Source: Antarcticibacterium flavum
Lineage (GTDB): Bacteria > Bacteroidota > Bacteroidia > Flavobacteriales > Flavobacteriaceae
Direction of reading: 5' to 3'
NCBI RefSeq assembly: GCF_006159205.1
Contig: NZ_CP040812.1
Coordinates: forward strand, 2,728,001 to 2,792,000
DNA length: 64,000 nt
Both the position numbers and the translations under genes were made by a program. Shown in pieces: positions 30,459 through 52,532 of this stretch. The notes under the pieces are model-generated. The model was not told the DNA's origin and ran no database searches. It was given only the letters and a program-made list of their open reading frames with translations. How positions within the stretch are numbered: position 1 is the first letter of the stretch; each line of letters starts with the position of its first letter.

Positions 30459-30523
30459 CAAGAATGTTAAAAACCGAATTGTGAAAACAGTTCGGTTTTT
30501 TGTTTTAAGGGATGTAGGCGAGA
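30445..30523. repeat. Direct repeat, copy 1 (tRNA-Gln 3' end plus terminator)
   Basis: 79 bases from the last 14 bases of tRNA-Gln through the terminator to GGCGAGA. Repeated at 32202-32280 with about three mismatches and no gaps. Confidence 0.85.
30469..30501 (+). terminator. Terminator of tRNA-Gln
   Basis: AAAAACCGAA and TTCGGTTTTTT pair around a 12-base loop. Confidence 0.85.
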
Positions 30524-32177
30524 TCCCGATAGCTCCTAAAATCCGCATCTCTCTTTAAAATTGATCTTTTTTATAGGTTCATAATAAAAATGTTTTCCAT
30601 TATTTTGTTTCCGAGGAATTATCCAGGCACATTTTATTTTTTATTATTGAGATGTTTACTATTTGAGGTTTGAAAAGCTAATTTTTTTGAATTAAGACAA
30701 TAATAGCTCATCCCTGGTGTAGGATTATTTTTGCAGATATTAGATTTCCTTTCTACTCTTTCTGTTGTTGTTACTATGTTTGATAATGGTTGTATGAATA
30801 AATCCTTAATTTGAGTTGGCGGCTTTGTTTGATCCATTTAGCAGGTAATATGATAAATCTGAAAATGAATTTTTTCATCCTGTAAGTGGGTTTTAGATAC
30901 CTGTTCGTTTTAGAAAAATGCTGGATTATCTTATTGTAGAGATTCCGGCATATTGCCGTAAAGTATAAGAAGACAAGATTTTTGTTCAAGGATGAGAAAG
31001 GCATATTGTTCCAACCAAAATCATTTTTAAGTATATCAAACTGGCGCTCCATATTTCCTCTTTGGTTGTAAAACGCTGCAACACCTTTGGTATCCAGATC
31101 AAAATCATTTGTTATTATGGCTCTATAATCATAAATATCTTGAGTAATCAAGTCTATCTGCCTATCTTTTTTTGGTTTTCTTTTTACAACGAGTCTATAT
31201 GTTTGTGCCTTATTTGATGGGGACTGTCGTTTAAAGGGGGTTATCTCAATAGATCCTACTTCCATGGTCCCATCTTCACACTTCATTTCTTCCCACTGGC
31301 CAACTTGGGAAAAATATTTTTCAACATAGCTGTTCCTGCATCCTATGTAAAAATTATCAACCTTACTTTGTAAGAAGGAAATGACATCATATTGGTATGA
31401 TGCCGCATCGGCTCTGAAATTATGGACTTTTTTGATCTTTTGGGAATCCAATAAATCAAATACTCTTTTAAGGGTGTCTAGCTGAAAAGATTTTGCATCC
31501 GAGTTTCCGTTCCGGTTTTCAATATATAGGATGTTCTCTTCATTTATGGTACATACTCCGGGCTGATATCCATAATTCCTTTTATACGTCATCTTACTAT
31601 CTTCCTTTTCATTGAAAATAATCGTGTTGTCGTAATCAATAGTAAGCTTGTCAGACTTAAAAACTCCAAGCTTTTTAAGAATATCTATATTCAGACTTTC
31701 TAATTTTGAGTTTGTACAATATTGATGAGTTACAACACCTCGCTTGGTTTTACAAGATTGAGTTTGCTCGGAAAGTTGAGATAGTCTTCTTAAAACAGTG
31801 TCAGGACTTGCTAGTTTTACAAAAGGATTATTAGTGAAATGGGGTTTCAAATGTGCTTGTAAATCTTCGATATAATCTCCTCCACAGAGGTAGACTGATT
31901 TCAAAGAATAGAAAATGTCTTTCCAGGAATATTTACTTTGATTGACCATTGGAGGAAGCCTGTCATTACAAATTTGATCGATGTTCATCTTGTTCAAATA
32001 GTCAAAAACAAAATTTGCTCCTCCGAAAGCGGAGATCGGATTGGATTTTATTATCTTCACGGCTGTAGTATTGTGCAACACTAATTTAAGTGAATATTAC
32101 GTAGCTGCAAAGCCCCATTAAATAAGGTTTTGCAGCTTTTTTATTATAAGACTTACGGATTTTAGGAGCTATCGGGA
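30524..32177 (-). mobile_element. IS1380-family insertion within 22-base inverted repeats
   Basis: A perfect 22-base inverted pair (TCCCGATAGCTCC... at 30524-30545 and its complement at 32156-32177) encloses the transposase and two AT-rich flanks. The length of 1.65 kb suits IS1380. Whether the 22-base arms are the true IS ends or a palindromic target unit split by the IS is not settled. Bases 32104-32142 form a hairpin (GCTGCAAA/TTTGCAGC-type), a likely block against transcription into the IS. Confidence 0.7.
30774..32081 (-). CDS. IS1380 family transposase
   Basis: 435 residues. The DDE set is visible: LTIDYDNTIIFNEKEDS (first Asp), NFRADAASYQYD (second Asp) and FYNQRGNMERQFDILKNDFGWNNMP (Glu, in the YxxR-x-E context of IS1380). 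KMTYKRNYGYQPGVCTI also matches the family. No interruption is seen, so the element could still move. GC content is lower than in the neighbouring chromosomal genes. Confidence 0.9.
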   Translation of the reverse strand: MLHNTTAVKIIKSNPISAFGGANFVFDYLNKMNIDQICNDRLPPMVNQSKYSWKDIFYSLKSVYLCGGDYIEDLQAHLKPHFTNNPFVKLASPDTVLRRLSQLSEQTQSCKTKRGVVTHQYCTNSKLESLNIDILKKLGVFKSDKLTIDYDNTIIFNEKEDSKMTYKRNYGYQPGVCTINEENILYIENRNGNSDAKSFQLDTLKRVFDLLDSQKIKKVHNFRADAASYQYDVISFLQSKVDNFYIGCRNSYVEKYFSQVGQWEEMKCEDGTMEVGSIEITPFKRQSPSNKAQTYRLVVKRKPKKDRQIDLITQDIYDYRAIITNDFDLDTKGVAAFYNQRGNMERQFDILKNDFGWNNMPFSSLNKNLVFLYFTAICRNLYNKIIQHFSKTNRYLKPTYRMKKFIFRFIILPAKWIKQSRQLKLRIYSYNHYQT

Positions 32178-33751: not shown

Positions 33752-33967
33752 CGCGATTATAGAATTTTCCTCTAACGAGGGCGGGTTCATATCCCGCAAA
33801 AACGGAGCTTTAAATCATACATGTTTCAACAACTTTTCCTGTTCAAAGAAGGAAGAAGAAACCTTTATTTTGAAGCAAAATAAAGGAGCTCAGGACTATA
33901 TGATTTGCCTCATATTATTTCCATGCAAAAATCTTCATTTTTGATCTTATTAATAAAAACGGGAATA

Positions 33968-34690
33968 ATGGAAGAATTAGAAAAAATGACTGTAGCGTCC
34001 CTGGTGACAGAAAATATTAAGACGGCCCATGTTTTTAAAAAATACGGGATAGACTTTTGCTGTGGTGGAGGAGTAACTATAAAAAAAGCTGCTGAAAAAG
34101 CTAAATTAGATTATAAGGTTCTGGAATCGGAGTTGAAGAACCTTAACACCTCTATCGCCGGTAATTATGATTATAATAAATGGTCTCTTGATTTTCTAGT
34201 AGATCATATTATAATTATTCATCACGCATTTGTAATAGAGAACATTCCCCTGGTGATAGCTTATGCTTCAAGGGTGGTGCAGGTTCACTCGGTGAATTAT
34301 CCAGAGCTTATTCAAATTCAACGCCTGTTCTCTGAATTGTCAATTGAACTCTCCGGCCATCTTAAAAAGGAGGAAAACATTGTATTTCCATATATTAAAA
34401 AATTGGTAGAAGCTGCCAAGGAAGGAACTGCGCCTGCAAAACCTGATTTTGATAAGATCTATAATCCCATTAAAATTATGGAAGAGGACCACGAAGAGGC
34501 GGGGGCAATTTTTAAACGAATAGCAAAGCTAAGTAATAACTATGTCCCTCCCCCAGGGGCGTGTCATACTTACAGGGCTTTTTATTCCAAGCTTGAAGAG
34601 TTTGAAAAGGACCTTCATACTCATGTGCATCTGGAAAATAATATTCTTTTTCCTAAAGCTATTGCTTTGGAAAAAAAATTGAATAGATAA
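33968..34690 (+). CDS. ric: Iron-sulfur cluster repair di-iron protein Ric (ScdA/YtfE)
   Basis: The DUF542 domain is at the start (MTVASLVTENIKTAHVFKKYGIDFCCGGG, with the Cys pair), then a hemerythrin-like domain with His/Glu ligands (LVDHIIIIHHAF, LSGHLKKEENIVFP, MEEDHEEAG, LHTHVHLENNILFP). Ric repairs FeS clusters damaged by nitric oxide and oxidants and may release NO-bound iron. The start is the ATG at 33968; an upstream TTG frame (33905) adds residues without family likeness. A degenerate FNR-like site (TGAT-TTGC-CTCA, 33901) lies upstream. Confidence 0.92.
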   Translation: MEELEKMTVASLVTENIKTAHVFKKYGIDFCCGGGVTIKKAAEKAKLDYKVLESELKNLNTSIAGNYDYNKWSLDFLVDHIIIIHHAFVIENIPLVIAYASRVVQVHSVNYPELIQIQRLFSELSIELSGHLKKEENIVFPYIKKLVEAAKEGTAPAKPDFDKIYNPIKIMEEDHEEAGAIFKRIAKLSNNYVPPPGACHTYRAFYSKLEEFEKDLHTHVHLENNILFPKAIALEKKLNR

Positions 34691-34871
34691 TTTTATTTAG
34701 ATTCTTATTCCCTGAAATGTGAGCCGTAGTATAATATAATTAACTTCTGTTTAGACCAGAAATAAATATGATATGGATTGAGCTCAAAATTAAAAGCTTA
34801 TATTAAGCATTTAGTATTGTGGGATGAAATATCCCTTCTTTATTCTTTAAGGGGAATGATAAAAAACAAAA

Positions 34872-35336
34872 ATGAAAAAACCAATAAAACGACACGAAGC
34901 ATTAAAACCTTTAAGCCGGGAGCATCATCATGGATTACTGTTATGCTGGAAAATTAGACAGGGTGTAAAACTGGATGTGAATATGGCGAGAATTAAGTCA
35001 TATACTGATTGGTTTAGGAGACACTACCTGGACCCACATTTTGAGGCAGAGGAGAAATATATTTTTCCTGTTTTAGGAAATGATCATGAACTGGTGAAAA
35101 GGGCGCTTGCAGAACATCGCCGACTTAAAAGATTGTTTAACCAGGAAGCTGATCTTGCTATTGCAATGAATAGTATTGAGGAAGAGCTGGATAGCCATAT
35201 AAGATTTGAGGAAAGAGTCCTTTTTAATGAGATCCAGGCGGTTGCTACCGAAGAGCAGCTCGCTGATATTGAAAAACATCACAATGGGATACAATTTTCT
35301 GATGATGACTGGAAGGACCATTTCTGGCAAAACTGA
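34872..35336 (+). CDS. Hemerythrin-domain protein, copy 1
   Basis: 154 residues with the HHE pattern: LSREHHHGLLLCWKIRQG, DPHFEAEEKYIFPVL, EHRRLKRLF and DSHIRFEERVLFNEI give the His/Glu ligands of a di-iron site. It resembles the next gene along its full length (KPLSREHHHG against KPVMQEHEQA; IRFEERVLF against IRFEENVLF), so the pair is a tandem duplication. Likely binds O2 or NO. Ends with WKDHFWQN, shared with copy 2 (WEDRFWQA). Confidence 0.85.
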   Translation: MKKPIKRHEALKPLSREHHHGLLLCWKIRQGVKLDVNMARIKSYTDWFRRHYLDPHFEAEEKYIFPVLGNDHELVKRALAEHRRLKRLFNQEADLAIAMNSIEEELDSHIRFEERVLFNEIQAVATEEQLADIEKHHNGIQFSDDDWKDHFWQN

Positions 35337-35404
35337 AATCCGGAAAAAACCTGAAGTAATATATTTCAACCTGCTTAGGATCCAGGGTTAAAATTGTTTA
35401 TCAA

Positions 35405-35869
35405 ATGACTTATAATTCCAAAATAACAGCTAAGACCTCCTCCTTCCTGAAGCCTGTTATGCAAGAGCATGAGCAGGCGCTACAATTATGTGAGCGTATA
35501 CGTATGGGTTTAAGGAATGAGGTAGACCTGCTTCGAATAAGAGCTTATACAGATTGGTTTCTTACTACCTATCTCGAACCTCATTTTGAGATAGAGGAAA
35601 AGTATATTTTTCCAATATTGGGAAGTAATGCAAGGGTTAAGCGGGCGCTGGCCAACCATCGGCGTATAAGAAAATTGTTGAGCTGTAGCTGTGAAAACGA
35701 AAAGGTCCTGAACCTGCTGGAGGAGGAACTTGCCTCTCATATAAGGTTTGAAGAAAACGTCCTATTCCGGGAAATCTCCAGAGCAGGAAAGCTTGTAGAG
35801 ATCAAAAAGCTACACCAGGCTGCAGTTTCTCCTAATGAGGAATGGGAAGACCGTTTCTGGCAGGCTTAA
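35405..35869 (+). CDS. Hemerythrin-domain protein, copy 2
   Basis: Same length (154) and layout as the gene 68 bases upstream. Ligand segments: MQEHEQALQLCERI, EPHFEIEEKYIFPIL, NHRRIRKLL, ASHIRFEENVLFREI. The first site has EHEQA where copy 1 has EHHHG, so the two iron sites may differ. It also carries three Cys in the middle (LSCSCE) that copy 1 lacks. Confidence 0.85.
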   Translation: MTYNSKITAKTSSFLKPVMQEHEQALQLCERIRMGLRNEVDLLRIRAYTDWFLTTYLEPHFEIEEKYIFPILGSNARVKRALANHRRIRKLLSCSCENEKVLNLLEEELASHIRFEENVLFREISRAGKLVEIKKLHQAAVSPNEEWEDRFWQA

Positions 35870-37990: not shown

Positions 37991-39484
37991 ATGAGCAAAC
38001 CATCTTCTACGGCCCACAAAATGTTATTTTTAAATACCCTAGCCTTTACTATATGTTTTGCAGTCTGGATGTTTAATGGGGTTACAGTTACTTTTCTTGT
38101 GGATAATGGAGCTTATGACTGGAATTCTGTTCAAATTGGATGGCTCCTGGGAATACCAGTACTTACGGGCTCAATTTTTAGACTGCCCGTGGGGATCATG
38201 ACCGATAAGTTTGGAGGGAAATGGGTCTTTGGAGGATTATTACTGATAAGTGCAATTCCTATGTTCCTGTTACAGTATGTAGATTCTTTCCTGGGGTTTG
38301 CTTTATGCAGTTTTGGTTATGGCCTTACCGGGGCAGGATTTGCGGTAGGAATCGCCTACACTTCTGTATGGTATGAGAAAGACTGGCAGGGCCGGGCTCT
38401 TGGGATCTTTGGTGCCGGTAATGCAGGTGCTGCATTAACCACCTTACTTGCGCCCACGATACTTCAAAACCTCACCAATGACGGGACAGAAATGGAGAAC
38501 TGGAGAGTGCTGCCGGTAATTTATGCTGCCGTACTTGTTCTTATGGCTGTGATTTTCCTGGTCTTCGCAAAGAACAGGAAACCTGAAACACAACGAACTA
38601 TTAAAAAACTTATGCTTCCCCTCAAAAGCCTGAGGGTTTGGAGATTTGGTCTTTATTACTTCCTGGTATTTGGGTGTTTTGTGGCCTTCTCCCAATGGCT
38701 GGTTCCTTATTATGTGAATGTTTATTACCTACCCCTTGTGACGGCAGGGATCCTGGCAGCAGCATTTAGTTTTCCGTCAGGGGTAATTCGTGCCCTGGGA
38801 GGGTGGATGAGTGACAAGTGGGGAGCTCGTAAAGTGATGTACTGGGTTTTAGGAACCTCTTTAGTTATTAGTTTTTTACTGATATTTCCAAAAATGGATA
38901 TTTACTCTCCCGGAAACGGAATTATGGCAAAACAAGCCGGGGAGGTTACAGAAGTATCAGAAACCAGGATCGTGGCAGCAGGTATAGAATATCCGGTGGC
39001 CGCCAGGGACGCCGGCCATGAAGAGACTGTAGAGGGGGATTTTGTTTTTCCCAAAAAAGAAACCTGGCAGGAGCCGGTAGTGCAGGAAGGACAAATGGTT
39101 GAGAAGCGGGAATTACTTGCAAGCGGGGAAACCCGGATCTTTTTTCAGGCCAATGTATGGGTGTTTACCTTCCTGGTAATTATTCTGGGCAGTATTTGGG
39201 GAATTGGTAAAGCCGCCGTCTATAAACATATTCCAGAATATTTTCCAGATGAGGTTGGAGTGGTAGGAGGAATGGTAGGCGTTCTTGGTGGTCTTGGAGG
39301 TTTTGTGTGCCCTATCATCTTTGGTTATCTCCTGAATGGCACCGGGCTATGGACCAGTGCATGGATGTTCACTCTTATTATATCTGCTATTTGCCTTTGG
39401 TGGATGCACAGGACAATACAGAAAATGATGCACCGGGAGCATCCCAAATTAATGCGCCAAATTGAATCGAAAAAAGAGAATTAA
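37991..39484 (+). CDS. narK: NarK-family nitrate/nitrite transporter, first copy
   Basis: A 497-residue MFS protein. SIFRLPVGIMTDKFGGK is the MFS A motif, FGAGNAGAALTTLLAP the nitrate signature and GVLGGLGGFVCP its second-half partner, with Arg residues (RLP, RALGG) expected to bind the anion. Between helices of the second half is an insertion of about 70 residues (about 312-380, QAGEVTEVSETRIVAAG to KRELLASGETR) that standard NarK lacks. It looks like a small beta domain. Likely the nitrate importer or the nitrate/nitrite exchanger for the reductase downstream. 21 bases separate it from the next narK. Confidence 0.9.
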   Translation: MSKPSSTAHKMLFLNTLAFTICFAVWMFNGVTVTFLVDNGAYDWNSVQIGWLLGIPVLTGSIFRLPVGIMTDKFGGKWVFGGLLLISAIPMFLLQYVDSFLGFALCSFGYGLTGAGFAVGIAYTSVWYEKDWQGRALGIFGAGNAGAALTTLLAPTILQNLTNDGTEMENWRVLPVIYAAVLVLMAVIFLVFAKNRKPETQRTIKKLMLPLKSLRVWRFGLYYFLVFGCFVAFSQWLVPYYVNVYYLPLVTAGILAAAFSFPSGVIRALGGWMSDKWGARKVMYWVLGTSLVISFLLIFPKMDIYSPGNGIMAKQAGEVTEVSETRIVAAGIEYPVAARDAGHEETVEGDFVFPKKETWQEPVVQEGQMVEKRELLASGETRIFFQANVWVFTFLVIILGSIWGIGKAAVYKHIPEYFPDEVGVVGGMVGVLGGLGGFVCPIIFGYLLNGTGLWTSAWMFTLIISAICLWWMHRTIQKMMHREHPKLMRQIESKKEN

Positions 39485-39505: not shown

Positions 39506-41101
39506 ATGAAGACTAACTTAGAAGAATGGAATGTTGAAGATCCGGTTTTTTGGGAACAAAAAGGTAAAAAGATAGCCTACAGAAACCTTTGGCTTTCCAT
39601 CCCGGCCCTGTTACTTTCTTTTGCTGTGTGGATGATGTGGAGTATTATTACCACCAAAATGAAAGAATTCAACTTCCATTTTGGAATGATCACTCCGGAT
39701 ATGAGTGAAGAAATGGTGAAGGAACAATTGGCGGTCATCAATAATTTATACTATACTTTGCCAGCTATAGCAGGTTTGGCAGGGGCTACCCTTAGGATCC
39801 CCAATTCATTTCTTATAGCGCTTGGCGGTGGTCGTAATGTGGTCTTCACTACTACTGTGTTGTTGTTGGTGCCGGCCTTTGGGGTAGGTTTTGCGTTGGC
39901 AGATCAAAATACGTCCTATCTTACCTTTGCGGTCCTCGCGCTTTTGTCGGGATTTGGAGGAGGGAATTTTGCCTCTTCTATGAGTAATATAAGTTACTTC
40001 TTTCCTAAGAGGATGCAGGGAACTTCACTGGGGCTTAATGCCGGTATAGGAAACCTGGGAGTGGGGATAATGCAAAAGATGATCCCGTTTGTAATAGGGA
40101 TTTTCCTTTTTTCAGCTGTTGGCAGCAGCGGAGAGGTGGTGGAGGACCAGCCGCTGGCAGGCTTGCAAAATGCGGGTTGGATCTGGATCCCTATTGTAAT
40201 TGCTGCTGTGGGTGCCTTTTTTGGAATGAACAACGTGATAACGGGAACACCAAAATTACCTACTACCATTCAGGGTATCTCCAAGACACTATTTATGGTA
40301 GGGATTGGAATTATAACTGCCGCAGTGGGATCATATTTATTGGTGGGACTGGAGATCAATATGTGGATAGTTCTCCCGGTGGTGGTGATTCTCACCCTGC
40401 TTCTTATGAAATACCTAAGTCCTAAGGACATAAAGCAAAGCCTTAATAAGCAATTTTCAATACTTAATGATAAGCATAACTGGATCATGACTATAATATA
40501 TACCATGACCTTTGGCTCATTCATAGGATTCTCGGCTGCCTTTCCAAAACTTTGCCAGGATATATTCGTGTATACAGACCCTGCAAACCCTCAATATGTA
40601 AACCCCAATGCCCCCGATTTCCTTACCTGGGTATTTATAGGCCCTATGCTTGGGGCTTTGGTGAGACCGGCGGGAGGCTGGTTAAGTGATAAAATAAACA
40701 GCGGGTCTAGGGTAACAACTTATAGTACAATAGTAACTGTAATAGCTACAATGGCAGTTGCTTATTTTGTGGTACAGGCAAGGGATAGTGCTACTCCAGA
40801 GGTCTACTGGTGGCCATTCTTTGCAGGTTTTATGGTCCTGTTCGTCACTACCGGAATTGGAAATGGTTCTACCTTTAGAAGTATACCATACATCTTCAGC
40901 AAGGAAAAAGCAGGTCCTGTGCTGGGCTGGACATCTGCAATTGCAGCATATGGAGCTTTTATTATTCCGCAGGTATTTGGGGAACAGATCCAGATGGGTA
41001 CACCAGAATATGCCTTATATGGCTTTGGCATTTACTATGTCATATGCCTGGGACTTAACTGGTGGTATTATGACCGGTCAAATTCCGGGATCGAATGTTG
41101 A
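39506..41101 (+). CDS. narK: NarK-family nitrate/nitrite transporter, second copy
   Basis: 531 residues, 12 helices. TLRIPNSFLIALGGGRNV, GFGGGNFASSMSNISYFFPKRMQGTSLGLNAGIGNLGVG (nitrate signature in the middle) and VRPAGGWLSDKINSG identify it. It differs from the first copy in the first loop, which has a long insert (MKEFNFHFGMITPDMSEEMVKEQ). Two unlike NarK proteins in tandem often split nitrate/H+ symport and nitrate/nitrite antiport. A strong terminator follows. Confidence 0.9.
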   Translation: MKTNLEEWNVEDPVFWEQKGKKIAYRNLWLSIPALLLSFAVWMMWSIITTKMKEFNFHFGMITPDMSEEMVKEQLAVINNLYYTLPAIAGLAGATLRIPNSFLIALGGGRNVVFTTTVLLLVPAFGVGFALADQNTSYLTFAVLALLSGFGGGNFASSMSNISYFFPKRMQGTSLGLNAGIGNLGVGIMQKMIPFVIGIFLFSAVGSSGEVVEDQPLAGLQNAGWIWIPIVIAAVGAFFGMNNVITGTPKLPTTIQGISKTLFMVGIGIITAAVGSYLLVGLEINMWIVLPVVVILTLLLMKYLSPKDIKQSLNKQFSILNDKHNWIMTIIYTMTFGSFIGFSAAFPKLCQDIFVYTDPANPQYVNPNAPDFLTWVFIGPMLGALVRPAGGWLSDKINSGSRVTTYSTIVTVIATMAVAYFVVQARDSATPEVYWWPFFAGFMVLFVTTGIGNGSTFRSIPYIFSKEKAGPVLGWTSAIAAYGAFIIPQVFGEQIQMGTPEYALYGFGIYYVICLGLNWWYYDRSNSGIEC

Positions 41102-41120
41102 TCTAATTATATACTGAACA

Positions 41121-41154
41121 AAAAAAGCCTTTGCAGTTTTGCAAAGGCTTTTTT
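41121..41154 (+). terminator. Terminator after the narK pair
   Basis: AAAAAAGCCTTTGCA/TGCAAAGGCTTTTTT, perfect 15-base stem, four-base loop. It separates the transport genes from the reductase cluster, which needs its own promoter. Confidence 0.92.
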
Positions 41155-41450: not shown

Positions 41451-42506
41451 ATGTACAGACTCTTTAAAACCTTAAATCGGCTGGCCCTAATCAAGGCAAC
41501 TATAGCAGCGGTACTCACAATTATCCTCGTGCTAATTGGTTCCCGGAATTTGCAAAATTTTGACCCCGCACTTATCGCCTATTTGATAGGAACAGTTTTC
41601 GCCATTTTTGGGATCGCCTACCGCTATTCGGTTTGGATCCAAAGGCCACCAACCAAGCTTTACTGGCGCAGGAGTATGCAGTTCCTATTTAGCAGGTATT
41701 TCTTTCCATACCTGTGGCGCTCTATTAAATTATTTTTCAGGAATATTCTTTTTCAAAGGTTCATAGCATATAGAAGCAGGACCCGCTGGATAGGGCATTT
41801 CCTGCTTGCCACGGGGTGTCTAATAGCCTTTGCTATCACTGTTCCTTTAACTTTTGGCTGGATACATTTTGTGCTCAAGCCGGGAGATGAAACTACATAT
41901 TATGCCCTCTTATTTGGATTTGAGGCCGGATCTTTTAGCTTGGGTTCCCCTATTGCTTTTATAGCTTTCCACGGCCTGGTATGGTGTTCGGTTCTGGTGA
42001 CTATTGGTGCCATTATGATGATGAATAGAAGGTTTACAGACGGGGGATTGATCGCTACCCAAAGTTTTGAGAATGACTGGTTGCCTTTGATCCTGCTTAT
42101 TGCAATTTCAGTGACCGGACTGGGTATTTCATATGATTATACTTTTTTGGAAGGTAAGACTTACCAGTTTATGGCGGTTACCCACGCAATTACAGTGATC
42201 CTTTTCCTGGTGTGGTTGCCTTTTGGAAAGTTCTTCCATATTTATCAGCGACTCGCCCAGTTGGGTGCAAATCTTTATAAAACCGAAGGGAAACGAAGGG
42301 GGATGGCAACCTGTCCGCACACTAAAAAGGAATTTGCCACCCAAACTCATATCAATGATCTTAAGGTTGTATCTAAAGATCTCGGTTTTAATTATGACAA
42401 GCAGGATGGAACCAATCATATGGACCTAAGCCCTGAAGGTAAGCGCTCTGCATTAGCCATGGCCCATTTGAAGGCACGAAAGGAAGGCGGAAAATTATTC
42501 GGTTAA
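41451..42506 (+). CDS. NarI/DsrM-like cytochrome b membrane subunit
   Basis: 351 residues, about six helices. His residues within or at the edge of helices (H116 in RWIGHFLLATG, H174 in IAFHGLVW, H245 in AVTHAITVILFLVWLPFG, H263 in KFFHIYQRL) could ligate two b hemes, as in NarI and DsrM/HmeC. LPFGKFFHI is close to the LPFTKLxH end of that family. The first 60 residues form two extra helices, and the last 80 (from CPHTKKEF) form a cytoplasmic tail. Likely takes electrons from quinol and passes them to the FeS protein. It is 21 bases from the catalytic subunit gene. Confidence 0.7.
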   Translation: MYRLFKTLNRLALIKATIAAVLTIILVLIGSRNLQNFDPALIAYLIGTVFAIFGIAYRYSVWIQRPPTKLYWRRSMQFLFSRYFFPYLWRSIKLFFRNILFQRFIAYRSRTRWIGHFLLATGCLIAFAITVPLTFGWIHFVLKPGDETTYYALLFGFEAGSFSLGSPIAFIAFHGLVWCSVLVTIGAIMMMNRRFTDGGLIATQSFENDWLPLILLIAISVTGLGISYDYTFLEGKTYQFMAVTHAITVILFLVWLPFGKFFHIYQRLAQLGANLYKTEGKRRGMATCPHTKKEFATQTHINDLKVVSKDLGFNYDKQDGTNHMDLSPEGKRSALAMAHLKARKEGGKLFG

Positions 42507-42527
42507 AAACAGAAAAAGAAAAAGAAA

Positions 42528-44747
42528 ATGGCAAAACTTCCAGTTTCAGTAGATAAGATCATAGAGAACTATGGCCCTCATAAGGCATATGCTCCACAGG
42601 TAGGATTTCATGGGAATAAGGAGCCGGACAAGCTGGTGAAAACCCATTGTTGCTATTGTGGTATGCAATGCGGTATTAAGCTGAAGGTTAAGGATAATAA
42701 GATCGCAGGTTTTGAGCCCTGGGAGGAATTCCCATTCAATGAGGGGCGGCTTTGTCCAAAAGGGGTTATGCGATATATGCAAAATAACCATCCGGACAGG
42801 CTTATGGATCCTATTGAGCGGGTGGAAGGGAAAGGCTTTAAACCCGTATCCTGGGACCACGCCATGAGCAGGACGGTAAATGAGATAAAAAGAATCCAGG
42901 AGAAATATGGCAAAGATTCCTTTGCAATGCTATCGGGCGTTTCACTCACCAACGAGAAAAGCTATATGATAGGGAAGTTTGCAAGGGTAGCCCTTAAAAC
43001 AGCCAATCTTGATTATAATGGCCGGTTGTGCATGGTTAGTGCAGGTGGAGGAAACAAAAAAGCATTTGGACTGGACAGGACCTCCAACAGTTGGGCCGAT
43101 CTTAAACATGCCGAGGTCATCCTTATAGCCGGGGCCAACGTTAGTGAAACCTTCCCCACCCTTACACATTATATCTGGCAGGCGAGGGACAACGGCGCTA
43201 AATTAATAGTAGTAGACCCAAGGATGATCCCATTGGCCAGAACGGCAGATCTTCATTTGCCAATTAGGCCGGGAGGAGATTCAGCGTTATTTGGAGCCAT
43301 CCTTAAAATAATGGTAGATAATGATTGGCTAGACCATGAATTCATTGAAAATCATACTTCAGGATTCCAGGAAACCATTGATGCCGTAAAGGATTATGAT
43401 CTTGACTGGGCAGAGGAGCATACCGGGATATCAAAGGATTTGATTTACCAGGCTGCAGAAATGTGGGGGAAAGCAAATACAAGCTTCCTGCTGCACGCCC
43501 GTGGGATCGAGCACCATACAAAAGGGGTGGAAAATGTACTTAGCTGTATAAATATTGTCTTGGCGTCGGGACGATTAGGAAAACCTTATTGCGGCTATGG
43601 CACGATCACAGGACAGGGTAACGGCCAGGGAGGCCGGGAGCACGGTCATAAATGTGATCAATTGCCGGGTAACCGTGATATCACTAATCCCGAGCATAGG
43701 AAATATATTGCAGGGGTTTGGGGTATAGATGAAAAGGATATGCCCGGTAAGGGACTTTCAGCCTATGAGCAAATTGAGGCGATACACCGCGGGGAGATCA
43801 AAGGAATGATAAGTATTTGTTTTAATCCGCTGGTATCCTTACCCAATAATAATTTTGTGCGGGAAGCCCTTGAAAAACTTGAATTTTATATTTGTATAGA
43901 TACCTTCCTTAGTGAAACTGCACGCCATGCCGATATAATAATGGCGGGCTCCCTGCACGAGGAGGAGGAAGGTACGGTGACTACTGCTGAAGGTAGGGTG
44001 GTGAAGATCAATGAAGCCATTACTCCGCCTAAGAATACAAGGAGGGATGGACAGATCCTCATGGAACTTGCTGCCCGCCTGGGTGAAAAAGAAAAATTCG
44101 ATTACCCTACCAGTGAAGATATCTTCAATGAATTAAGGGTTGCATCCAAAGGGGGTACGGCAGATTATTACGGAATTACCTATAAAAAAGTCGTAGATAA
44201 TATGGGGATCTTCTGGCCCTGTCCTTCTGAAGATCACCCGGGAACCCCGCGTTTGTGGGAAGATAGGAAATTTAAAACACCGGATGGGAAAGCGCACTTT
44301 AATCCTGTAAGATATCGTGCAGCTTCAGAAATGCCGAATAAGGAATATCCGGTAGTGTTGACCACAGGAAGGGTCGTCTCGCAATATCTAAGCGGAACCT
44401 CTACCCGAAGGATTGGAAAGTTACTGGATCAATATCCTGAACCTTTACTGGAAATACACCCAAAACTGGCCTTCCAGTATGGAATAGAAAATCATGACCT
44501 TATTAAAGTAAAAACCAGAAGGGGAGAAGCAGAATTTCCGGCCCATGTGGTGGAAACAATTCGAGAGGATACGGTGTTCATTCCTTATCATTGGGGAGGA
44601 AAACATTCAGCCAACCAATTAACAATAGATAATTTAGATCCTGTTTCCAAGATTCCTGAATTTAAGGTTTGTGCCTGCCAGCTGGAGAAAACCGGGAGAA
44701 AAGGATCACAACATAGAACAGATACTGCGTATCAAAGTTCGCTTTAG
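42528..44747 (+). CDS. Molybdopterin nitrate reductase catalytic subunit (NasA/NarB/NapA type)
   Basis: 739 residues. The N-terminal [4Fe-4S] motif is C41-x2-C44-x3-C48 and C76 (LCPKGV). NGRLCMVSA places Cys168 as the likely Mo ligand, the hallmark of the NasA/NarB/NapA branch (respiratory NarG uses Asp). [20 protein letters not shown] and [17 protein letters not shown] are pterin-binding segments, and the C-terminal barrel domain has [14 protein letters not shown]. There is no signal peptide or twin-arginine motif, so the enzyme is cytoplasmic. Together with NarK, the cytochrome b, the ferredoxin and the Moco genes it is best read as a quinol-linked nitrate reductase. Formate dehydrogenase is the other branch, but that has Sec/Cys in another context. 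Confidence 0.85.
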
Positions 44748-44754
44748 AATAAGA

Positions 44755-44940
44755 ACCAGGAAACAAGAGTCAAGAAACAAGAAACAAGAGAAGAGAGAAG
44801 TGCGGAATTTAAAAATACAGAAGCAGCAGTCCCGGATAGAACAATAAAATATTCGTGCATTCGTGGCTAACTTTTTTAATTCAAACAGAGAACGGAGAAC
44901 GGAGAACAGAGAACAGAGAACAGAGAACGAAATTTAAAAC
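44755..44940. repeat. Degenerate tandem repeats inside the reductase operon
   Basis: Two patches: AAACAAGA/GTCAAGAAAC words (44757-44795) and GAGAACG/GAGAACA seven-base units, about six copies (44886-44931). Between them is ordinary sequence. The 214-base gap breaks an otherwise tight operon. The AAACAAG words are the complement of CTTGTTT words at 19885-19915. Confidence 0.8.
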
Positions 44941-44961
44941 CTAACCTTTAAAATTAAAATT

Positions 44962-45531
44962 ATGCCGGAAACAAATTATGATCAGGAAATGGCTTTTTTC
45001 GTAGACATGCAACGTTGTATTGGTTGTCATGCCTGTGAAATGGCCTGTGCTGAATGCGAAACGAATGGCCAGGAAAGTATGATCCACGTAAATTATGTAG
45101 ACAGGGAAAAAAGCCCTCAAACTACGGTACAGGTATGTATGCATTGCGAAGATCCTACCTGTGCAAATGTTTGTCCGGCAGATGCCATACACCAGGATGA
45201 ATTTGGAGTGGTACACTCTGCCAACACCTCAAGGTGCATTGGGTGTTCCAACTGTGTTTTAGCCTGTCCATTTGGTGTTCCAAAGAAAATGGAAGAGGCA
45301 GAGTTGATGATGAAATGCAATATGTGCTATGACAGGACAAGTGCCGGGAAAAAGCCTATGTGCGCAACGGTTTGTCCAAGCCAGGCCCTTTATTACGGGA
45401 CACGGGAAGAAATTGAAAGGATGAGGCCAGATAGTGAGCCGGTAAACTCTTTCCTTTTTGGACAACAAGAGGTAAATACCAAAGTAAATATTATGATGCC
45501 TAAAGGCACACACCAGTTAATTATACCATAA
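44962..45531 (+). CDS. Four-cluster ferredoxin subunit (NrfC/DmsB/PhsB-like)
   Basis: 189 residues with 16 Cys in four clusters: C19/22/25/29, C59/62/67/71, C92/95/98/102 and C119/122/134/138, the DmsB/NrfC pattern. There is no Tat signal peptide, so it stays in the cytoplasm, the same side as the catalytic subunit. It should wire the membrane cytochrome b to the Mo enzyme. Confidence 0.88.
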
Positions 45532-45543
45532 CTTTTAAATACG

Positions 45544-46062
45544 ATGGCAAAAGAAGATTCTGAAAGAGAACCAAGCTGGAAAAGTGATTTTCCAATAGAG
45601 ACCAGGCGCGGGACGCACGTAAGCCGAAGGGAATTTGCCAAATTCCTGGGCTTATTATCAGGGGCTTTTGCCCTTAGCAACGGCTTTATAGTCATTAGAG
45701 CAATAGCTTTTCCTGCAGAAAAACTGGAAGGAGAACACTTTGTTGTGAATGAAGATGAGGTTGCAGTGGGGGAAATGTTTCAGTTTGAGATACATGGAGA
45801 TAAGCACATTCCGTATATCTTAATTCACCTGGAAGAAAATGAATGGCGCGCTTTTGAACAAAAATGCACTCATTTGACTTGTGCGGTGAGATATCGTAAG
45901 GATGAGAATAAGATCGAATGCCCCTGCCATAATGGATGGTTTAGTGCAGATACCGGCGCGGTACTGCAGGGACCACCACCACGGCCTTTACCTCAACTGG
46001 AGGTAGTAGTGAGAGACGGCAAGGTATATGTGAAAGAAAAAAGTAAGGATCAAAATGCATAA
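45544..46062 (+). CDS. Rieske [2Fe-2S] protein with Tat-type anchor
   Basis: 172 residues. VSRREFAKFLGLLSGAFAL (residues 26-44) is a twin-arginine motif with a helix that may remain as an anchor. The Rieske site is C108-T-H110 and C126-P-C-H129. The extra C113 and C128 are placed as the disulfide of bc1/b6f-type Rieske proteins (CTHLGC...CPCHGS), which goes with a high redox potential and an oxidising compartment. The dioxygenase-type ferredoxins lack these. It should face the periplasm, opposite to the catalytic subunit. It is 12 bases from the ferredoxin gene. Confidence 0.88.
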   Translation: MAKEDSEREPSWKSDFPIETRRGTHVSRREFAKFLGLLSGAFALSNGFIVIRAIAFPAEKLEGEHFVVNEDEVAVGEMFQFEIHGDKHIPYILIHLEENEWRAFEQKCTHLTCAVRYRKDENKIECPCHNGWFSADTGAVLQGPPPRPLPQLEVVVRDGKVYVKEKSKDQNA

Positions 46063-46064
46063 TC

Positions 46065-46349
46065 ATGAGTGATTTTAGAACATCCCAGAACGAAGCACAT
46101 CCCAATAAAACCAATACTATCATGACAGGGATCATCCTGTTACAAATACTTTTTGTAAGTATACAGGTATGGTTCTTATTCGGTGCTTTAAATAACGCGC
46201 TTGAGGGTAATATCTTCTTTGCAATCACTACCTTTATAGGATCCCTTATCATGGCCATAGGCTCATTTTGGGTGCTACGCTATTTACCGGAACCATTGAA
46301 GAAGAAACCAGACAAAAGACCAAGAGTGAATGTTAGTAGACAGCCATAA
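46065..46349 (+). CDS. Small two-helix membrane protein of the reductase operon
   Basis: 94 residues: hydrophilic start, helix 1 (IMTGIILLQILFVSIQVWFLFGAL), a short loop, helix 2 (IFFAITTFIGSLIMAIGSFWVL), and a basic proline-rich tail (RYLPEPLKKKPDKRPR). It is between the Rieske and moaA genes with a 2-base gap and a 20-base overlap, so it is cotranslated. No function known; an assembly or anchoring subunit is a fair guess. It may belong to DUF6755, which I cannot confirm. Confidence 0.7.
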   Translation: MSDFRTSQNEAHPNKTNTIMTGIILLQILFVSIQVWFLFGALNNALEGNIFFAITTFIGSLIMAIGSFWVLRYLPEPLKKKPDKRPRVNVSRQP

Positions 46350-47310
46350 AAGAATTCACGATTATCTAAGGATCTCCCTTACAGATAGCTGCAACTTTCG
46401 TTGCCAGTACTGTATGCCAGATGAGAATATCCAGTGCCTGCCCAATAAACACCTTATGCAGGTAGATGAAATTGAGCAAATTGCTGCAAAATTTGTAGAG
46501 CTGGGTGTAAATAAAATAAGATTAACGGGAGGGGAACCTATGGTTCGAAAGGAATTCCCCGAGATCCTGGAAAAGATCTCGAAATTACCGGTGGAATTAA
46601 GCCTTACAACCAATGCAGTCCTCGCTCATAAATACATAGAAAACTTAAAAGCAGCCGGGGTACGATCACTTAATATAAGCCTGGATACCCTCAATCCTGA
46701 AACTTTTAAAAGAATAACTAAAAGGGATCAATTTCAAAGAGTTTGGGATAATATCCTTCTTATGCTCAGTGAAGGTTTTCGTGTGAAGATCAATTGCGTG
46801 GGGATTGAAGGGGTTATTGAAAAAGAGATCCTGGATTTTGTTGCCATAACAAAGGACCTTCCCCTACATGTGAGGATCATAGAATTCATGCCTTTTGAAG
46901 GGAATCACTGGAATAGCAAGAAAGTGGTTACGGCAGGACAAATGCTTAAATGGGTAGAGGAGGAGTATGATATGGTAAAGCTGAAGGATGAACCACATGC
47001 CACCGCTAAGAAATATAAAGCGATAGGCCACGAAGGTACCTTTGCTTTTATCACCACTATGACCGAGCATTTTTGTGGGGACTGTAACAGGATGAGGATC
47101 ACAGCAGATGGGAAGATGAAGAATTGCCTTTTTGGAAGTGAAGAAATGGACCTGCTGGGCACCCTGAGAAAAGGAGAGGATATTGAGCCGTTAATAAGAA
47201 CTTCTGTCATAAGGAAATATAAAGTGATGGGAGGCCAGTTTTCCAAATCCTATAAGGGTGCAGAGGCCAGTGAATTGAAAAATCGAAGTATGATCAAAAT
47301 TGGAGGATGA
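46330..47310 (+). CDS. moaA: GTP 3',8-cyclase MoaA
   Basis: The first step of molybdenum cofactor synthesis (GTP to 3',8-cyclo-dihydro-GTP). The N-terminal radical SAM motif is C21-NFR-C25-QY-C28, with IRLTGGEP after it. The C-terminal second cluster is FCGDCNRMRITADGKMKNC. The end GG (MIKIGG) needed for activity is present. 326 residues. Overlaps both neighbours by a few bases (its start lies inside the membrane protein gene; its TGA overlaps the moeA ATG). Confidence 0.95.
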   Translation: MLVDSHKRIHDYLRISLTDSCNFRCQYCMPDENIQCLPNKHLMQVDEIEQIAAKFVELGVNKIRLTGGEPMVRKEFPEILEKISKLPVELSLTTNAVLAHKYIENLKAAGVRSLNISLDTLNPETFKRITKRDQFQRVWDNILLMLSEGFRVKINCVGIEGVIEKEILDFVAITKDLPLHVRIIEFMPFEGNHWNSKKVVTAGQMLKWVEEEYDMVKLKDEPHATAKKYKAIGHEGTFAFITTMTEHFCGDCNRMRITADGKMKNCLFGSEEMDLLGTLRKGEDIEPLIRTSVIRKYKVMGGQFSKSYKGAEASELKNRSMIKIGG

Positions 47311-48487
47311 TCTCAGTTAATGATGCCCGCCGTATTCTTTCAGAAAACCTTGAAAGAGCCAAATCAAAAAATATTTCCCTGAATGACAGCCTGGGACTTA
47401 TCCTGGCTGTAGATGTATATTCTCCCATTGATGTACCATCTTTCGATAATTCAGCCATGGATGGTTATGCCATGAAATTTGACAGCAGCAGGAATAGCTG
47501 GGAATCTGGCAGCGTGATACAGGCCGGGGATACCAATGCATATAAGGTGAAGGAAGGTACTGCCGCCCGAATATTTACCGGAGCTAAAATTCCGCAGGGA
47601 GTGGATACAGTTATTCCGCAGGAGCTCATTGAACGGGATGAAGCTACAGGTCGAATATCCTATGATCAGGATAAGATACAAACCGGAAGCAATATTCGCT
47701 TAAAAGGTTCCCAATGTAAAAAAGAAGAATTGATCGCAGAAAAAGGTACCCCTGTTACTCCCGGTCTTATAGGACTATTGGCATCTGTTGGATTGAATAA
47801 AGTGGAGGTATATACTCCTGCTACTGTGACCTATATTATCACCGGCGATGAGTTAAAAGAGGCAGGTACAGCCCTTAAGGAAGGCGAGATCTATAACTCC
47901 AATGGGCCAATGCTGGAGGCTTTGCTAAAAAACGCCGGTATAAAAGAAATCTCTGGTCTTAAAGCTACAGATGATAAGGAGGAGCTGCAGGAAAAGATCA
48001 ATAAGGCACTGGCAGCGTCAAACGTGCTAATAATTAGTGGGGGATCTCTGTGGGGGATTATGATTTTGTGAAGGAATGCCTGGAAAAAGCAGGAGTAAAA
48101 GAACTATTTTATAAAATAAAGCAACGCCCCGGCAAACCTATGTATGCCGGGAGAAAGGGAGATAAATATATTTTTGCTTTACCGGGAAATCCGGCTTCGG
48201 TTTTAAGTTGTTTTAACCAATATGTCAAACCCAGCCTTAAATATCTTGCAGGAAAGGAAAAGGTATGGGAGGCAGATGCGGTCCTTTCCCTGGCTGCCGA
48301 CCAAAAGAAAAAAGAAGGGCTTACTTTCTTTCTTAAGGGAAGAATGGAACAAGATGAGGTAATTATCCCTGGAGGACAGCAATCTTTCAATTTACTGGCC
48401 TTTAGCACCGCAAATTGCCTGGTGGAGCTGGAGGAAGATAAAGAGGAAATAAAAGCGAGGACTCCTGTGAATGTTTTTTATCTTTAA
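47307..48487 (+). pseudogene. moeA: Molybdopterin molybdenumtransferase MoeA, split by a -1 frameshift
   Basis: MoeA inserts molybdate into adenylylated molybdopterin. The first frame (47307-48071) carries SFDNSAMDGYAM, AARIFTGAKIPQGVDTVIPQE and YIITGDEL. It then reads SGGSLWGIMIL and stops. The second frame (48050-48487) continues with GDYDFVKECLEKAG, KPGKPMYAG-like IKQRPGKPMYAG and FALPGNPASVLSCF. Restoring SGGISVGDYDFV needs one G in the G5 run at 48039-48043, so a single-base deletion explains the split. Nothing else is damaged. If real it would block the last step of Moco synthesis and inactivate the reductase; an assembly error is at least as likely. Confidence 0.9.
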
Positions 48488-49814: not shown

Positions 49815-50032
49815 AGGCTTTTGGAATGCTGGCCGAGAAGCTTCCCTCAGGCGAATTTGAATTCCCTGTGTATGGGGATACCCGGGAACTTTTGGATAGG
49901 CTGGAGCAGGAGTTTCCTCAACTTAAGGACGCTAAATATACCCTCGCCGTGGATAAACAGGTTGTACACGATAAACAGGCTTTGAACGGTAATGAGGAGA
50001 TCGCCTTATTACCACCATTTTCGGGAGGATGA
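49796..50032 (+). CDS. moaD: Molybdopterin synthase sulfur carrier subunit MoaD
   Basis: 78 residues with a beta-grasp pattern and the essential C-terminal GG (PPFSGG), which MoeB adenylates and which then carries the thiocarboxylate sulfur. Its stop overlaps the moeB start as ATGA. Confidence 0.93.
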   Translation: MERFKIKAFGMLAEKLPSGEFEFPVYGDTRELLDRLEQEFPQLKDAKYTLAVDKQVVHDKQALNGNEEIALLPPFSGG

Positions 50033-51129
50033 GCAGATTTGAAAGACAACATATTTTGCCGGAATTTGGCACCTCAGGACAAAAAAAACTAAAAAAGGCC
50101 CGTATCCTTGTAGTTGGAGCCGGGGGTCTTGGTTGTCCTGCCCTGCTTTACCTGGCTGCTGCCGGGGTGGGAACTATTGGTATTGCAGACGGGGACACCG
50201 TAAGCCTGTCTAATTTAAACAGGCAAACTTTATTTGGTTATGGGGACCTTGAAAAATTGAAAGCGATAGCTGCAGGCGAAGTGCTTAATCAAAAATACCC
50301 CGACATAAATATTGAAACAATAAACGAATATCTCACTCCGGATAATATCCTGGAAATTATGGAAAAATATGACCTGGTGCTTGATGGGTCTGATAACTTT
50401 GGAACCAGGTATATGGTCAATGACGCCTGTGTCCTTCGCGGTAAACCTTTAATTATGGGGGCTATTTACCAATATGAAGGCCAGGTGACGGTTTTTAATT
50501 ATGGTGAGGAACCGGTGAATTACAGGGACCTCTATCCCGTACCACCTTCTGCAGACGAAATCCCTAACTGTAGTGAAACCGGAGTGCTGGGAGTATTGCC
50601 AGGAATAATTGGCACCCTGATGGCAGCTGAAGCAATAAAGGTAATTTCAGGATTGGGTAAAGTCCTGGCGAATAAGGTTCTTTTTTATGATCTTTTAAAT
50701 TCCGGGTTTTATGAGGTGAGCTTAAAGCCAAATTTATCATCTGGAAAGAATATTCCTGAAAATGAAGTAGCTTTCAGAAATACAGATTACAACATCACCT
50801 GTGGCGTTGTGGAAAAAATAACCTGGGAAAACGCCCTTCACTGGACCTGTCAAGCAGAGAATTCAATAGTCATCGATATCAGGGAGCCAAATGAAGAACC
50901 AGAATTTAGTAGTCATACAATTTTAAAAATTCCGATGAATGATTTGCTCAAAGATCCCGGTATATTAGAGGAGGTAGACACCGTTATGCTATTCTGTAAA
51001 TCTGGCCAGCGAAGTATGCAGGCAGCCAAAGAGCTAAGGCAAAGATTTCCTGAAAAGGAAATACGCTCTGTGGAAGGGGGACTTCAACATCCTTCCTCAC
51101 CTTTAAATAATCAAAACAATGAATCGTAA
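50029..51129 (+). CDS. moeB: MoeB/ThiF-type adenylyltransferase fused to a rhodanese domain
   Basis: 366 residues. Residues 1-240 are the E1-like domain: RILVVGAGGLGCPALLYLAAAGVG (nucleotide loop), LSNLNRQTLF, LVLDGSDNF and the PNCSETGVLG Cys loop. Residues about 270-355 are a rhodanese domain with the active Cys in LFCKSGQRS. It activates MoaD and can supply its sulfur, like fungal/animal MOCS3. The CxxC zinc pairs of E. coli MoeB are not evident. Confidence 0.9.
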   Translation: MSRFERQHILPEFGTSGQKKLKKARILVVGAGGLGCPALLYLAAAGVGTIGIADGDTVSLSNLNRQTLFGYGDLEKLKAIAAGEVLNQKYPDINIETINEYLTPDNILEIMEKYDLVLDGSDNFGTRYMVNDACVLRGKPLIMGAIYQYEGQVTVFNYGEEPVNYRDLYPVPPSADEIPNCSETGVLGVLPGIIGTLMAAEAIKVISGLGKVLANKVLFYDLLNSGFYEVSLKPNLSSGKNIPENEVAFRNTDYNITCGVVEKITWENALHWTCQAENSIVIDIREPNEEPEFSSHTILKIPMNDLLKDPGILEEVDTVMLFCKSGQRSMQAAKELRQRFPEKEIRSVEGGLQHPSSPLNNQNNES

Positions 51130-51556
51130 ACCAAAAAATATATTTGTACAGGGGCCAATCTCCAGTGAGAAGATCGCCCAATCCATTCAAAACCACAGCA
51201 CGAAAACCAATATAGGTGCCCATTCCATTTTCCTTGGGCAGGTGCGGGCAGATGAGAAGGAGGGCAGCACTGTAACTGCGATTGAATACACCACTTACGA
51301 AGAAATGGCGCTGCAGAAGGCTTTCGAAATTAGAGAAGCCATCTTTGCAAAATATGACCTCACCTGTATGCATATCTATCACAGCCTGGGAGAGGTGAAA
51401 GTGGGAGAGATTTGCCTGTTCGTCTTCACCTCCTCCAAACACCGCAAAATGGCGATAGATGCCTGTGAAGAACTGGTGGAGCGAATTAAGAAGGAACTGC
51501 CGGTGTGGGGAAAGGAATTAATGGAGAATGGGGAAAGCTGGAAGGTTAATACTTAG
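51119..51556 (+). CDS. moaE: Molybdopterin synthase catalytic subunit MoaE
   Basis: 145 residues. AHSIFLGQVRADEKEGSTVTAIEYTTYEEMA is the MoaE start, IYHSLGEVKVGEICLFV the core and IKKELPVWGKELMENG the active-site Lys region. With MoaD it converts cPMP to molybdopterin. Overlaps moeB by 11 bases. Confidence 0.94.
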   Translation: MNRKPKNIFVQGPISSEKIAQSIQNHSTKTNIGAHSIFLGQVRADEKEGSTVTAIEYTTYEEMALQKAFEIREAIFAKYDLTCMHIYHSLGEVKVGEICLFVFTSSKHRKMAIDACEELVERIKKELPVWGKELMENGESWKVNT

Positions 51557-51617
51557 GAGTCTGGACCGCTACGCTGCTGGAGTCTAGAGTCTGGACTAAA
51601 ATAAAAAAAAGAAATAA
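51556..51617. repeat. Word-type repeat between moaE and moaCB
   Basis: GGAGTCTGGACCGCTACGC then TGGAGTCTAGAGTCTGGAC. Same family as 17850-17880 and 19520-19560. Confidence 0.5.
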
Positions 51618-52532
51618 ATGGTAAATATCACTCATAAAAGTAATACCCTTCGTAAGGCAACAGCACAGGCGGTGGTGCGGGTTAGCAGTCCTGAAACAAT
51701 AAAAGCTGTTGAGGAGAAAAAAGTACCCAAGGGCGATGTGTTTGAAATGTCTAAAACCGCAGGCCTGTTTGCGGCAAAAAGGACGAGTGATATGATCCCC
51801 GATTGCCATCCCCTGCCTATTGAATTTACCGAAATTAAATTCCGGATAAAGGGGCTGGATATTTTTGTGAGTGTGGAGGTTCATACCATATATAAAACCG
51901 GGGTGGAAGTAGAGGCTATGCATGCAGCTTCGGTTGTTGCTATCACGATGTATGATATGCTTAAGCCAATTGATAAGGGAATAAGCATTGAGAATATTAA
52001 ACTCCTTGAGAAAAAAGGTGGTAAAACAGATTACCGGAAGGTGGTAGAGGAGAACCAAATATCAGCTACTGTGATCGTGTGTTCAGATTCTATTTCGGCC
52101 GGGGAAAAGGAGGATCGCGCAGGGAAGGTGATCATTGAGAAACTGGAGGCGCACCAGGTTGGGGTGGAGGATTATGTTATTATTCCAGATGAAAAAGAGA
52201 GAATACAGGAGCTGGTGAAAACTAAATGTGAGGCCGGGGTGAACCTTATCATTCTAACCGGGGGTACAGGCCTTTCTCCCAGAGATGTCACGCCAGAGGC
52301 TATCCTGCCGCTTCTCGAGCGCCCTATTCCGGGGATAGAAGAGGCAATAAGAAATTACGGGCAGCAAAGAACACCTTATTCTATGCTATCTAGATCTGTT
52401 TCCGGATTGATTGGGGAAACTTTGGTCCTTGCCCTGCCGGGATCTACAAAAGGGGCAGGGGAATCCATGGATGCAGTGTTTCCTGCAGTGATGCATATCT
52501 TCAGGGTTCTGGCTGCTTTTAAACATGATTAG
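51618..52532 (+). CDS. moaCB: Bifunctional MoaC-MoaB (cPMP synthase fused to molybdopterin adenylyltransferase)
   Basis: 304 residues, two domains. Residues 1-150 are Moa[46 protein letters not shown] and [24 protein letters not shown]. Residues 155-304 are MoaB/Mog[24 protein letters not shown] and [19 protein letters not shown]. MoaC makes cPMP, and the second domain adenylates molybdopterin before MoeA acts. The fusion is usual in Bacteroidota. Confidence 0.93.

Follow-up and report, generated by a model that had tools for sequence, protein, structure and literature searches.

A 64,000-nucleotide stretch of the Antarcticibacterium flavum genome (contig NZ_CP040812.1, positions 2,728,001 to 2,792,000; hereafter the window, part of a single-contig genome of 4.35 Mb) carries five adjacent genes, all on the forward strand, for a cytochrome b, a molybdenum catalytic subunit, a ferredoxin, a Rieske iron-sulfur protein and a small protein of family DUF6755 (Table 1). 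We propose, with a probability of roughly two in three, that they encode one membrane-bound, cytoplasm-facing menaquinol:nitrate reductase serving denitrification, with the Rieske protein perhaps passing electrons inward. The argument rests on what sequence can show: the gene set and its conservation, the clade and motifs of its proteins, and the alternatives missing from the genome. A preliminary description of this DNA had listed the same five genes, which we confirm as open reading frames (ORFs), and had read them as a bc-like complex that splits electrons. We favor its cytoplasmic catalytic side, NarI-like cytochrome b and periplasmic Rieske protein, and find no support for the split.

Conservation of the gene set

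A contig scan with the catalytic protein, biased to close relatives by its use of peptide patterns taken from the window, yielded 78 loci. Cytochrome b accompanies the catalytic gene at all 78, ferredoxin at 77, the Rieske gene at 75 and DUF6755 at 73; the complete set, in the same order, is present at 73. This bears out the co-occurrence that the preliminary description had staked its proposal on, including the persistence of cytochrome b and Rieske genes in relatives, as the three loci counted without a Rieske gene (L051, L067 and L071) are those where the contig runs out before its position. Two Polyangiaceae loci (L065 and L075) have the Rieske gene and want only a DUF6755 match. Gene order is kept in Bacteroidota, Ignavibacteriota and Deinococcota, and likewise, without a DUF6755 match, in Myxococcota. 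Because it is kept across these groups, the arrangement is more than chance. Chloroflexota contribute one locus (L071), whose contig ends just past the start of the ferredoxin gene. NarK-like genes occur at 58 of the 78 loci. Among named sources, Salegentibacter and Salinimicrobium have the catalytic proteins closest to that of the window, and Flavobacterium johnsoniae CI04 (L028) carries the set as well.

We drew a separate sample of 296 genomes from the phylum, including A. flavum itself. It may share species with the 78-locus set; L113 and L079 are identical in the catalytic tree, a possible overlap of this kind. Forty of these genomes hold 48 MopB matches below 1e-100. Seven matches (A. 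flavum included) are 73–100% identical to the window protein and the remaining 41 are 30–39% identical. All six of the other close relatives carry all five genes, and none of the four partners lies within the 1.5 kb flanks of the 23 distant matches (of 41) that we examined. PF20540, the DUF6755 family, is found in exactly the same seven genomes, at the set's own place.

A search of plasmids with the Rieske protein matched four records from Deinococcus and, weakly, one from Rubrobacter. Three Deinococcus plasmids were read and have cytochrome b, catalytic subunit, ferredoxin, Rieske, DUF6755 and a transporter consecutively; in Deinococcus wulumuqiensis a nitrate/nitrite transporter directly follows DUF6755. 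Hemerythrin-domain and FmdE genes lie close to one Deinococcus copy of the set. Distance matrices of the five genes correlate at 0.83–0.90 (74 rows), but this proves little about co-evolution since moaA, a linked control, gives 0.85 (51 rows).

Catalytic subunit

The catalytic protein has three MopB Pfam domains, neither a signal sequence nor a hydrophobic segment, and a Cys168 (LCM motif) present in every one of 79 aligned rows, much as first described. It scores 846 bits against the NasC model and 606 bits against the formate dehydrogenase (FDH) model, under the respective cut-offs of 1100 and 666. In the whole genome the NarG model TIGR01580 finds only this gene, which scores 25.8 bits where the cut-off is 1084.

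We built a careful tree of 38 catalytic rows, 15 of them from the set (L071 being the locus cut off by its contig end). The set's rows form one clade (support 100/99), joined at 100/100 to a sister clade of five NasC-like proteins from Paenibacillus, Mycobacterium, Streptantibioticus, Arthrobacter and Deinococcus gobiensis. They are separate from NapA, which has its own starred clade, from the fused Bacteroidota Nas and from FDH; a quick 48-row tree agrees. At the molybdenum, the ligand motif is Cys-Met in all 21 rows of the set that were compared and in the Nas and Nap rows, except for one cyanobacterial row (L142, Cys-Thr). Of the five rows labelled FDH, four show Cys- or Sec-His and one shows Cys-Gln. 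On sequence grounds the subunit thus groups with nitrate reductases, in the NasC branch, as the preliminary description had expected, and the motif and separate clade rule out a formate dehydrogenase. Kinship to arsenite oxidase was also rejected: AioA is a long separate branch of unsettled exact placement. Annotation is available for three of the five sister NasC loci, where nirB adjoins or is one small gene off and neither a cytochrome b nor a four-cluster ferredoxin is annotated; the remaining two records are unannotated.

Wells et al. (2020; PMC7331816) state that members of the NasC/AioA/NapA/FDH branch were never tied to four-cluster and membrane-anchor subunits, and that NasA and NasC act in assimilation only. 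Our set departs from the first statement and would depart from the second.

Cytochrome b, ferredoxin and DUF6755

The cytochrome b has six predicted transmembrane helices and a C-terminal domain predicted to be cytoplasmic, with a large positively charged face predicted inside. Its four candidate haem histidines, already pointed out in the preliminary description, are well conserved among 89 chosen homologues: H116, H245 and H263 in all 89 and H174 in 84. The cytochromes b without H174 (L042, L051, L057, L079 and P0210), though similar in other respects, have lost or replaced the proposed outer haem ligand.

In fold comparison, NarI and EtfD were the best matches among those listed. The bc1 cytochrome b is absent from the listed matches, which carries no weight against it or any other unlisted family. 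Pfam gave no match, and the NCBIfam kin are weak (QmoC 25 bits, TmcC 21 bits, both far under cut-off). Foldseek alone gave no match below E 0.001, and the 50 rows listed were mostly receptors; a profile search of PDB chains gave one meaningless match (E 0.22). The C-terminal domain (residues 264–351) has two zinc-ribbon-like CxxC motifs in 43 of the 89 homologues and none in the window protein. A large distinct cytochrome b group (P0121–P0240), 67–95% identical to L071, comes mostly from Ktedonobacteria where the source is named. NCBI records label many named relatives ‘MFS transporter’, including the Deinococcus plasmid copies.

The ferredoxin, previously described as a 16-cysteine protein without a signal, indeed lacks both a signal and a hydrophobic segment, and 16 cysteines lie in cluster motifs; the conserved cysteines number 17, with C32 as the extra one. 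The 94-residue protein, earlier noted for its two helices, matches DUF6755 (PF20540, 31.7 bits, cut-off 27), a family named in no paper of the literature searched.

Rieske protein

The Rieske protein has one N-terminal helix (predicted model pLDDT, the predicted local distance difference test, 82.9). The cluster ligands and the disulfide, including the C113/C128 pair of the preliminary description, are present in 76 of 76 rows (C108, H110, C113, C126, C128 and H129). Its twin-arginine translocation (Tat) motif also stands: 73 of the 76 rows have the strict form RRxF, and a W[KRS]xDF motif precedes the helix in all of them.

In bc1 Rieske proteins, a Ser and a Tyr at the cluster act as hydrogen-bond donors that raise the potential. 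These positions are Gly and Phe (G131/F133) in all 76 rows here. Since loss of the Ser and the Tyr in the yeast protein costs 130 and 65 mV, respectively (PMC12954380), a lower potential, suited to menaquinol, is likely for the window Rieske. Such residues by themselves are an unsafe guide to the potential: a Kuenenia Rieske with Phe for Tyr, but with Ser kept, is at +335 mV (PMC12954380).

The best solved relatives by phmmer are the Rieske proteins of the Kuenenia and Thermus bc-type complexes, at about 50 bits, with AioB at 25 bits. Fold leaves the type of Rieske undecided because dioxygenase ferredoxins, the b6f Rieske and AioB all match. Within 6 kb of the 78 loci, the span that was covered, there is no conserved cytochrome c (CXXCH) gene; the largest group spans three loci.

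Nitrate and nitrite metabolism of the host

Searches of the A. flavum genome were compared with 14 control genomes. NirK is found above cut-off; its gene, which also encodes a cytochrome c domain, lies 12 kb beyond the end of the window (L096:12148-13605), beside cbb3 oxidase genes. The NosZ propeller domain is also above cut-off, and the control genomes give none. Two routes to ammonium gave no match in the genome, namely NrfA (found in 1 of 14 controls) and siroheme reductase PF01077 (11 of 14); NirB is partial only (168.6 bits against 578, positions 1–332 of 794). Reduction of nitrite to NO and of N2O to N2 is thus predicted to be possible, and the ammonium routes tested are missing. Because NirK and a NosZ domain are present and those routes are missing, we take the set to serve respiration rather than assimilation. 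PF00033, the bc1 cytochrome b, has no match in the genome (8 of 14 controls), and one NrfD-family match suggests an alternative complex III that would already feed cytochrome c.

Two side observations concern the NirK region past the window's end. The gene for a fused cbb3 oxidase subunit I/II (L096:9573-11767, minus strand) is broken into two ORFs matching model positions 3–286 and 285–709, and a gene with an FGE-sulfatase domain (L096:13624-14403) directly follows the NirK–cytochrome c fusion.

Proposed electron path and alternatives

We infer the complex itself, quinol as donor, the direction of electron flow and the topology as follows. The NasC-type subunit and four-cluster ferredoxin would form a cytoplasmic dimer docked on the inner face of the NarI-like cytochrome b. 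Menaquinol would be oxidized near the outer membrane face, with its protons released outside and energy conserved as in NarGHI. Electrons would cross via haem b, from an outer pair (H174/H245) to an inner pair (H116/H263), and then pass through the ferredoxin clusters to the [4Fe-4S] and molybdenum centers, where imported nitrate would be reduced to nitrite. NarK-type carriers may bring nitrate in and take nitrite out to NirK.

A NarI-like path alone needs no Rieske protein, yet one is encoded at 75 of 75 loci with enough sequence. We place it, with DUF6755, as a probable subunit on the outer side. Our guess is that it feeds the outer haem, either by helping to form the site of quinol oxidation or by relaying electrons, and that nitrate thus receives every electron. 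A bolder form of this proposal is tentative: the Rieske and the NarI-family cytochrome b may make up a second, independent Rieske/cytochrome b complex, a new low-potential menaquinol site that powers a respiratory nitrate reductase of the NasC type and has DUF6755 as its specific membrane subunit.

The electron split of the preliminary description would also oxidize quinol outside, sending one electron via haem b to nitrate and the other via the Rieske protein to a separate periplasmic acceptor. It fits the disulfide-bearing, Tat-anchored Rieske protein found wherever the locus is long enough (75/75), and the cbb3 oxidase and the NirK–cytochrome c fusion could take such electrons. We nevertheless regard it as improbable. 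The genome gives no PF00033 match, the listed fold matches of the cytochrome b point to NarI and EtfD, no cytochrome c gene is conserved at the loci, and the Rieske lacks the Ser and Tyr. Cytochrome c may already be served by the alternative complex III. With nitrate as acceptor (about +0.43 V), there would be no obvious gain from diverting an electron.

No more credible is a Rieske protein that stays outside quinol oxidation and serves as a side port, exchanging electrons with a soluble periplasmic carrier. The G131/F133 pair should lower its potential as such a role would have it, but the +335 mV of the Kuenenia protein with Phe weakens that point, and no conserved carrier gene was found nearby.

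Less probable still is an enzyme facing outward. Arsenite oxidase AioAB is exported as a hitchhiker on the Tat signal of its Rieske subunit. The present catalytic subunit and ferredoxin, without signals of their own, could travel likewise on the twin-arginine motif of the Rieske protein, placing the active site outside as in the haloarchaeal enzyme (PMC2483277). Against this, most loci (58/78) have NarK-like genes and D. wulumuqiensis has its transporter right after DUF6755, cytochrome b is predicted to turn its large positive face inward, as a docking face, and the motif before the Rieske helix is kept. An assimilatory nitrate reductase with unusual partners, as the NirB-linked sister NasC might suggest, is very unlikely in a genome where siroheme reductase and NrfA were not found and NirK and a NosZ domain were.

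If the proposed menaquinol:nitrate reductase is correct, it is a respiratory lineage that the usual markers narG and napA do not capture. Its hosts would be Bacteroidota, Ignavibacteriota, Deinococcota and Myxococcota, with Chloroflexota as a possible addition (one incomplete locus), and counts of denitrifiers would come out too low for the first step. Should electrons indeed pass between the Rieske and a NarI-type cytochrome b, coupling of these two kinds of protein would have an origin apart from the bc1 fold. DUF6755 would gain a place of work, and the cytochromes b misnamed ‘MFS transporter’ would be corrected.

Locus and neighbouring genes

Table 1. Features of the nitrate region (window coordinates)
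Feature	Position	Strand	Basis
Cytochrome b, NarI-like	41451..42506	+	ORF, 351 aa
Catalytic subunit (molybdenum bis-pyranopterin guanine dinucleotide, Mo-bisPGD), NasC branch	42528..44747	+	ORF, 739 aa; PF00384, PF01568, PF04879
Ferredoxin, four predicted [4Fe-4S] clusters, DmsB/FdhB-like	44962..45531	+	189 aa; PF13247 and other Fer4 families
Rieske [2Fe-2S] protein, twin-Arg motif	45544..46062	+	172 aa; PF00355
DUF6755 protein, two predicted membrane helices	46065..46349	+	94 aa; PF20540, hydropathy
NarK-family nitrate/nitrite transporter (context)	37991..39484	+	TIGR00886 179.5 bits, under cut-off 311.7; MFS_1
Second NarK-family transporter (context)	39506..41101	+	TIGR00886 262.4 bits, under cut-off 311.7
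Terminator-like hairpin and T run, between second narK and cytochrome b gene	~41120..41154	+	Read by eye, unscored
moaA, molybdenum cofactor (Moco) synthesis (context)	46330..47310	+	Radical_SAM, Mob_synth_C
moeA, two overlapping ORFs (context)	47307..48487 (47307-48071 + 48050-48487)	+	MoeA model
moeB and moaCB, rest of Moco cluster (context)	within 50029..52532	+	MoeB and MoaC/MoaB models
YtfE/RIC iron-sulfur repair protein (context)	33905..34690	+	TIGR03652 235.7 bits, above cut-off 204.7

The preliminary description had joined the five genes to two narK genes and a Moco operon. All are neighbours; we describe the narK genes and the five-gene set as adjacent rather than as one operon, as the hairpin with its T's stands between, and moeA is split. 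The second NarK-family protein scores 301.4 bits against the NarU model, under the cut-off of 836. The two moeA ORFs cover positions 2–248 and 252–399 of one MoeA model, consistent with a frameshift or sequencing error; together, the split cbb3 and moeA genes hint at indel errors in the assembly. The moeB assignment is under cut-off (328.5 bits against 449) and that of moaCB above it (MoaC/MoaB, 402 bits against 285), and a further ORF within the same interval is presumably moaE.

The spacer between the catalytic and ferredoxin genes (44748-44961) is 214 bases long with GAGAACA-like repeats, compared with a median of 18 bases in 77 relatives. Upstream of narK, positions 33905-35869 hold the YtfE/RIC gene, usually a nitric-oxide stress gene, together with a hemerythrin-family protein and a similar further ORF. 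Also upstream of the nitrate region, an IS1380 family transposase (30774-32081) has a tRNA-Gln (30386-30459) nearby, and a tRNA was the sole match of an Rfam scan at gathering cut-offs.

Comparison with known systems

The preliminary description knew of no characterized complex with this set. We likewise found no description of the five-gene set in the literature searched, a search that did not reach subscription journals and preprints, but haloarchaea and Caldithrix are published cases in which a nitrate reductase goes with a Rieske protein and a cytochrome b. The haloarchaeal nar operon includes a Rieske (narB) and a cytochrome b (narC) with its nitrate reductase (PMC2483277), and an antimycin-sensitive link is cited (PMC4683180). 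The catalytic subunit there is NarG-type and faces outside (PMC2483277), whereas ours has no signal or hydrophobic segment, and NarC is a 486-residue cytochrome b discussed within a Rieske/cytochrome b Q-cycle complex (PMC2483277, PMC4683180). In Caldithrix abyssi a nitrate reductase likewise has Rieske and cytochrome b neighbours, but it is a periplasmic NapA with NapGH and NapM, and the Rieske/cytochrome b pair is bc1-like (PMC5317091).

Other systems share single features. AioAB pairs a MopB subunit with a Rieske partner, but in the two AioAB loci we read, the annotation shows neither a ferredoxin nor a cytochrome b gene alongside. The set's Rieske resembles that of bc1/b6f in its ligands and disulfide, and differs in that the Ser/Tyr donors and a PF00033 partner were not found. 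The assimilatory NasC of Bacillota, Actinomycetota and some Deinococcus is the sister clade and has the same Cys-Met molybdenum ligand; the three annotated loci that we read have nirB, and no cytochrome b or four-cluster ferredoxin is annotated there. In Bacillus bataviensis, hcp and a gene for another Rieske-type protein adjoin nasC (PMC3475470). Nitrate improves anaerobic growth of Flavobacterium columnare, for which a ‘soluble cytoplasmic nitrate reductase’ is described (PMC5395568).

The closest overall parallel is NarGHI. Both have a cytoplasmic molybdenum subunit and a four-cluster iron-sulfur subunit, and probably also a NarI-like cytochrome b, NarK carriers nearby and a respiratory role. 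Unlike NarGHI, the set has a catalytic subunit of the NasC branch with a Cys ligand instead of NarG, no NarJ chaperone among its five genes (the rest of the genome was not searched for NarJ), and a 351-residue cytochrome b with one candidate His on transmembrane helix 4 and a C-terminal domain; it also has the extra Rieske and DUF6755. We therefore view the set as a variant of the membrane-bound quinol-linked nitrate reductases, in which the novel part would be the pairing of a Rieske protein with a NarI-like cytochrome b.

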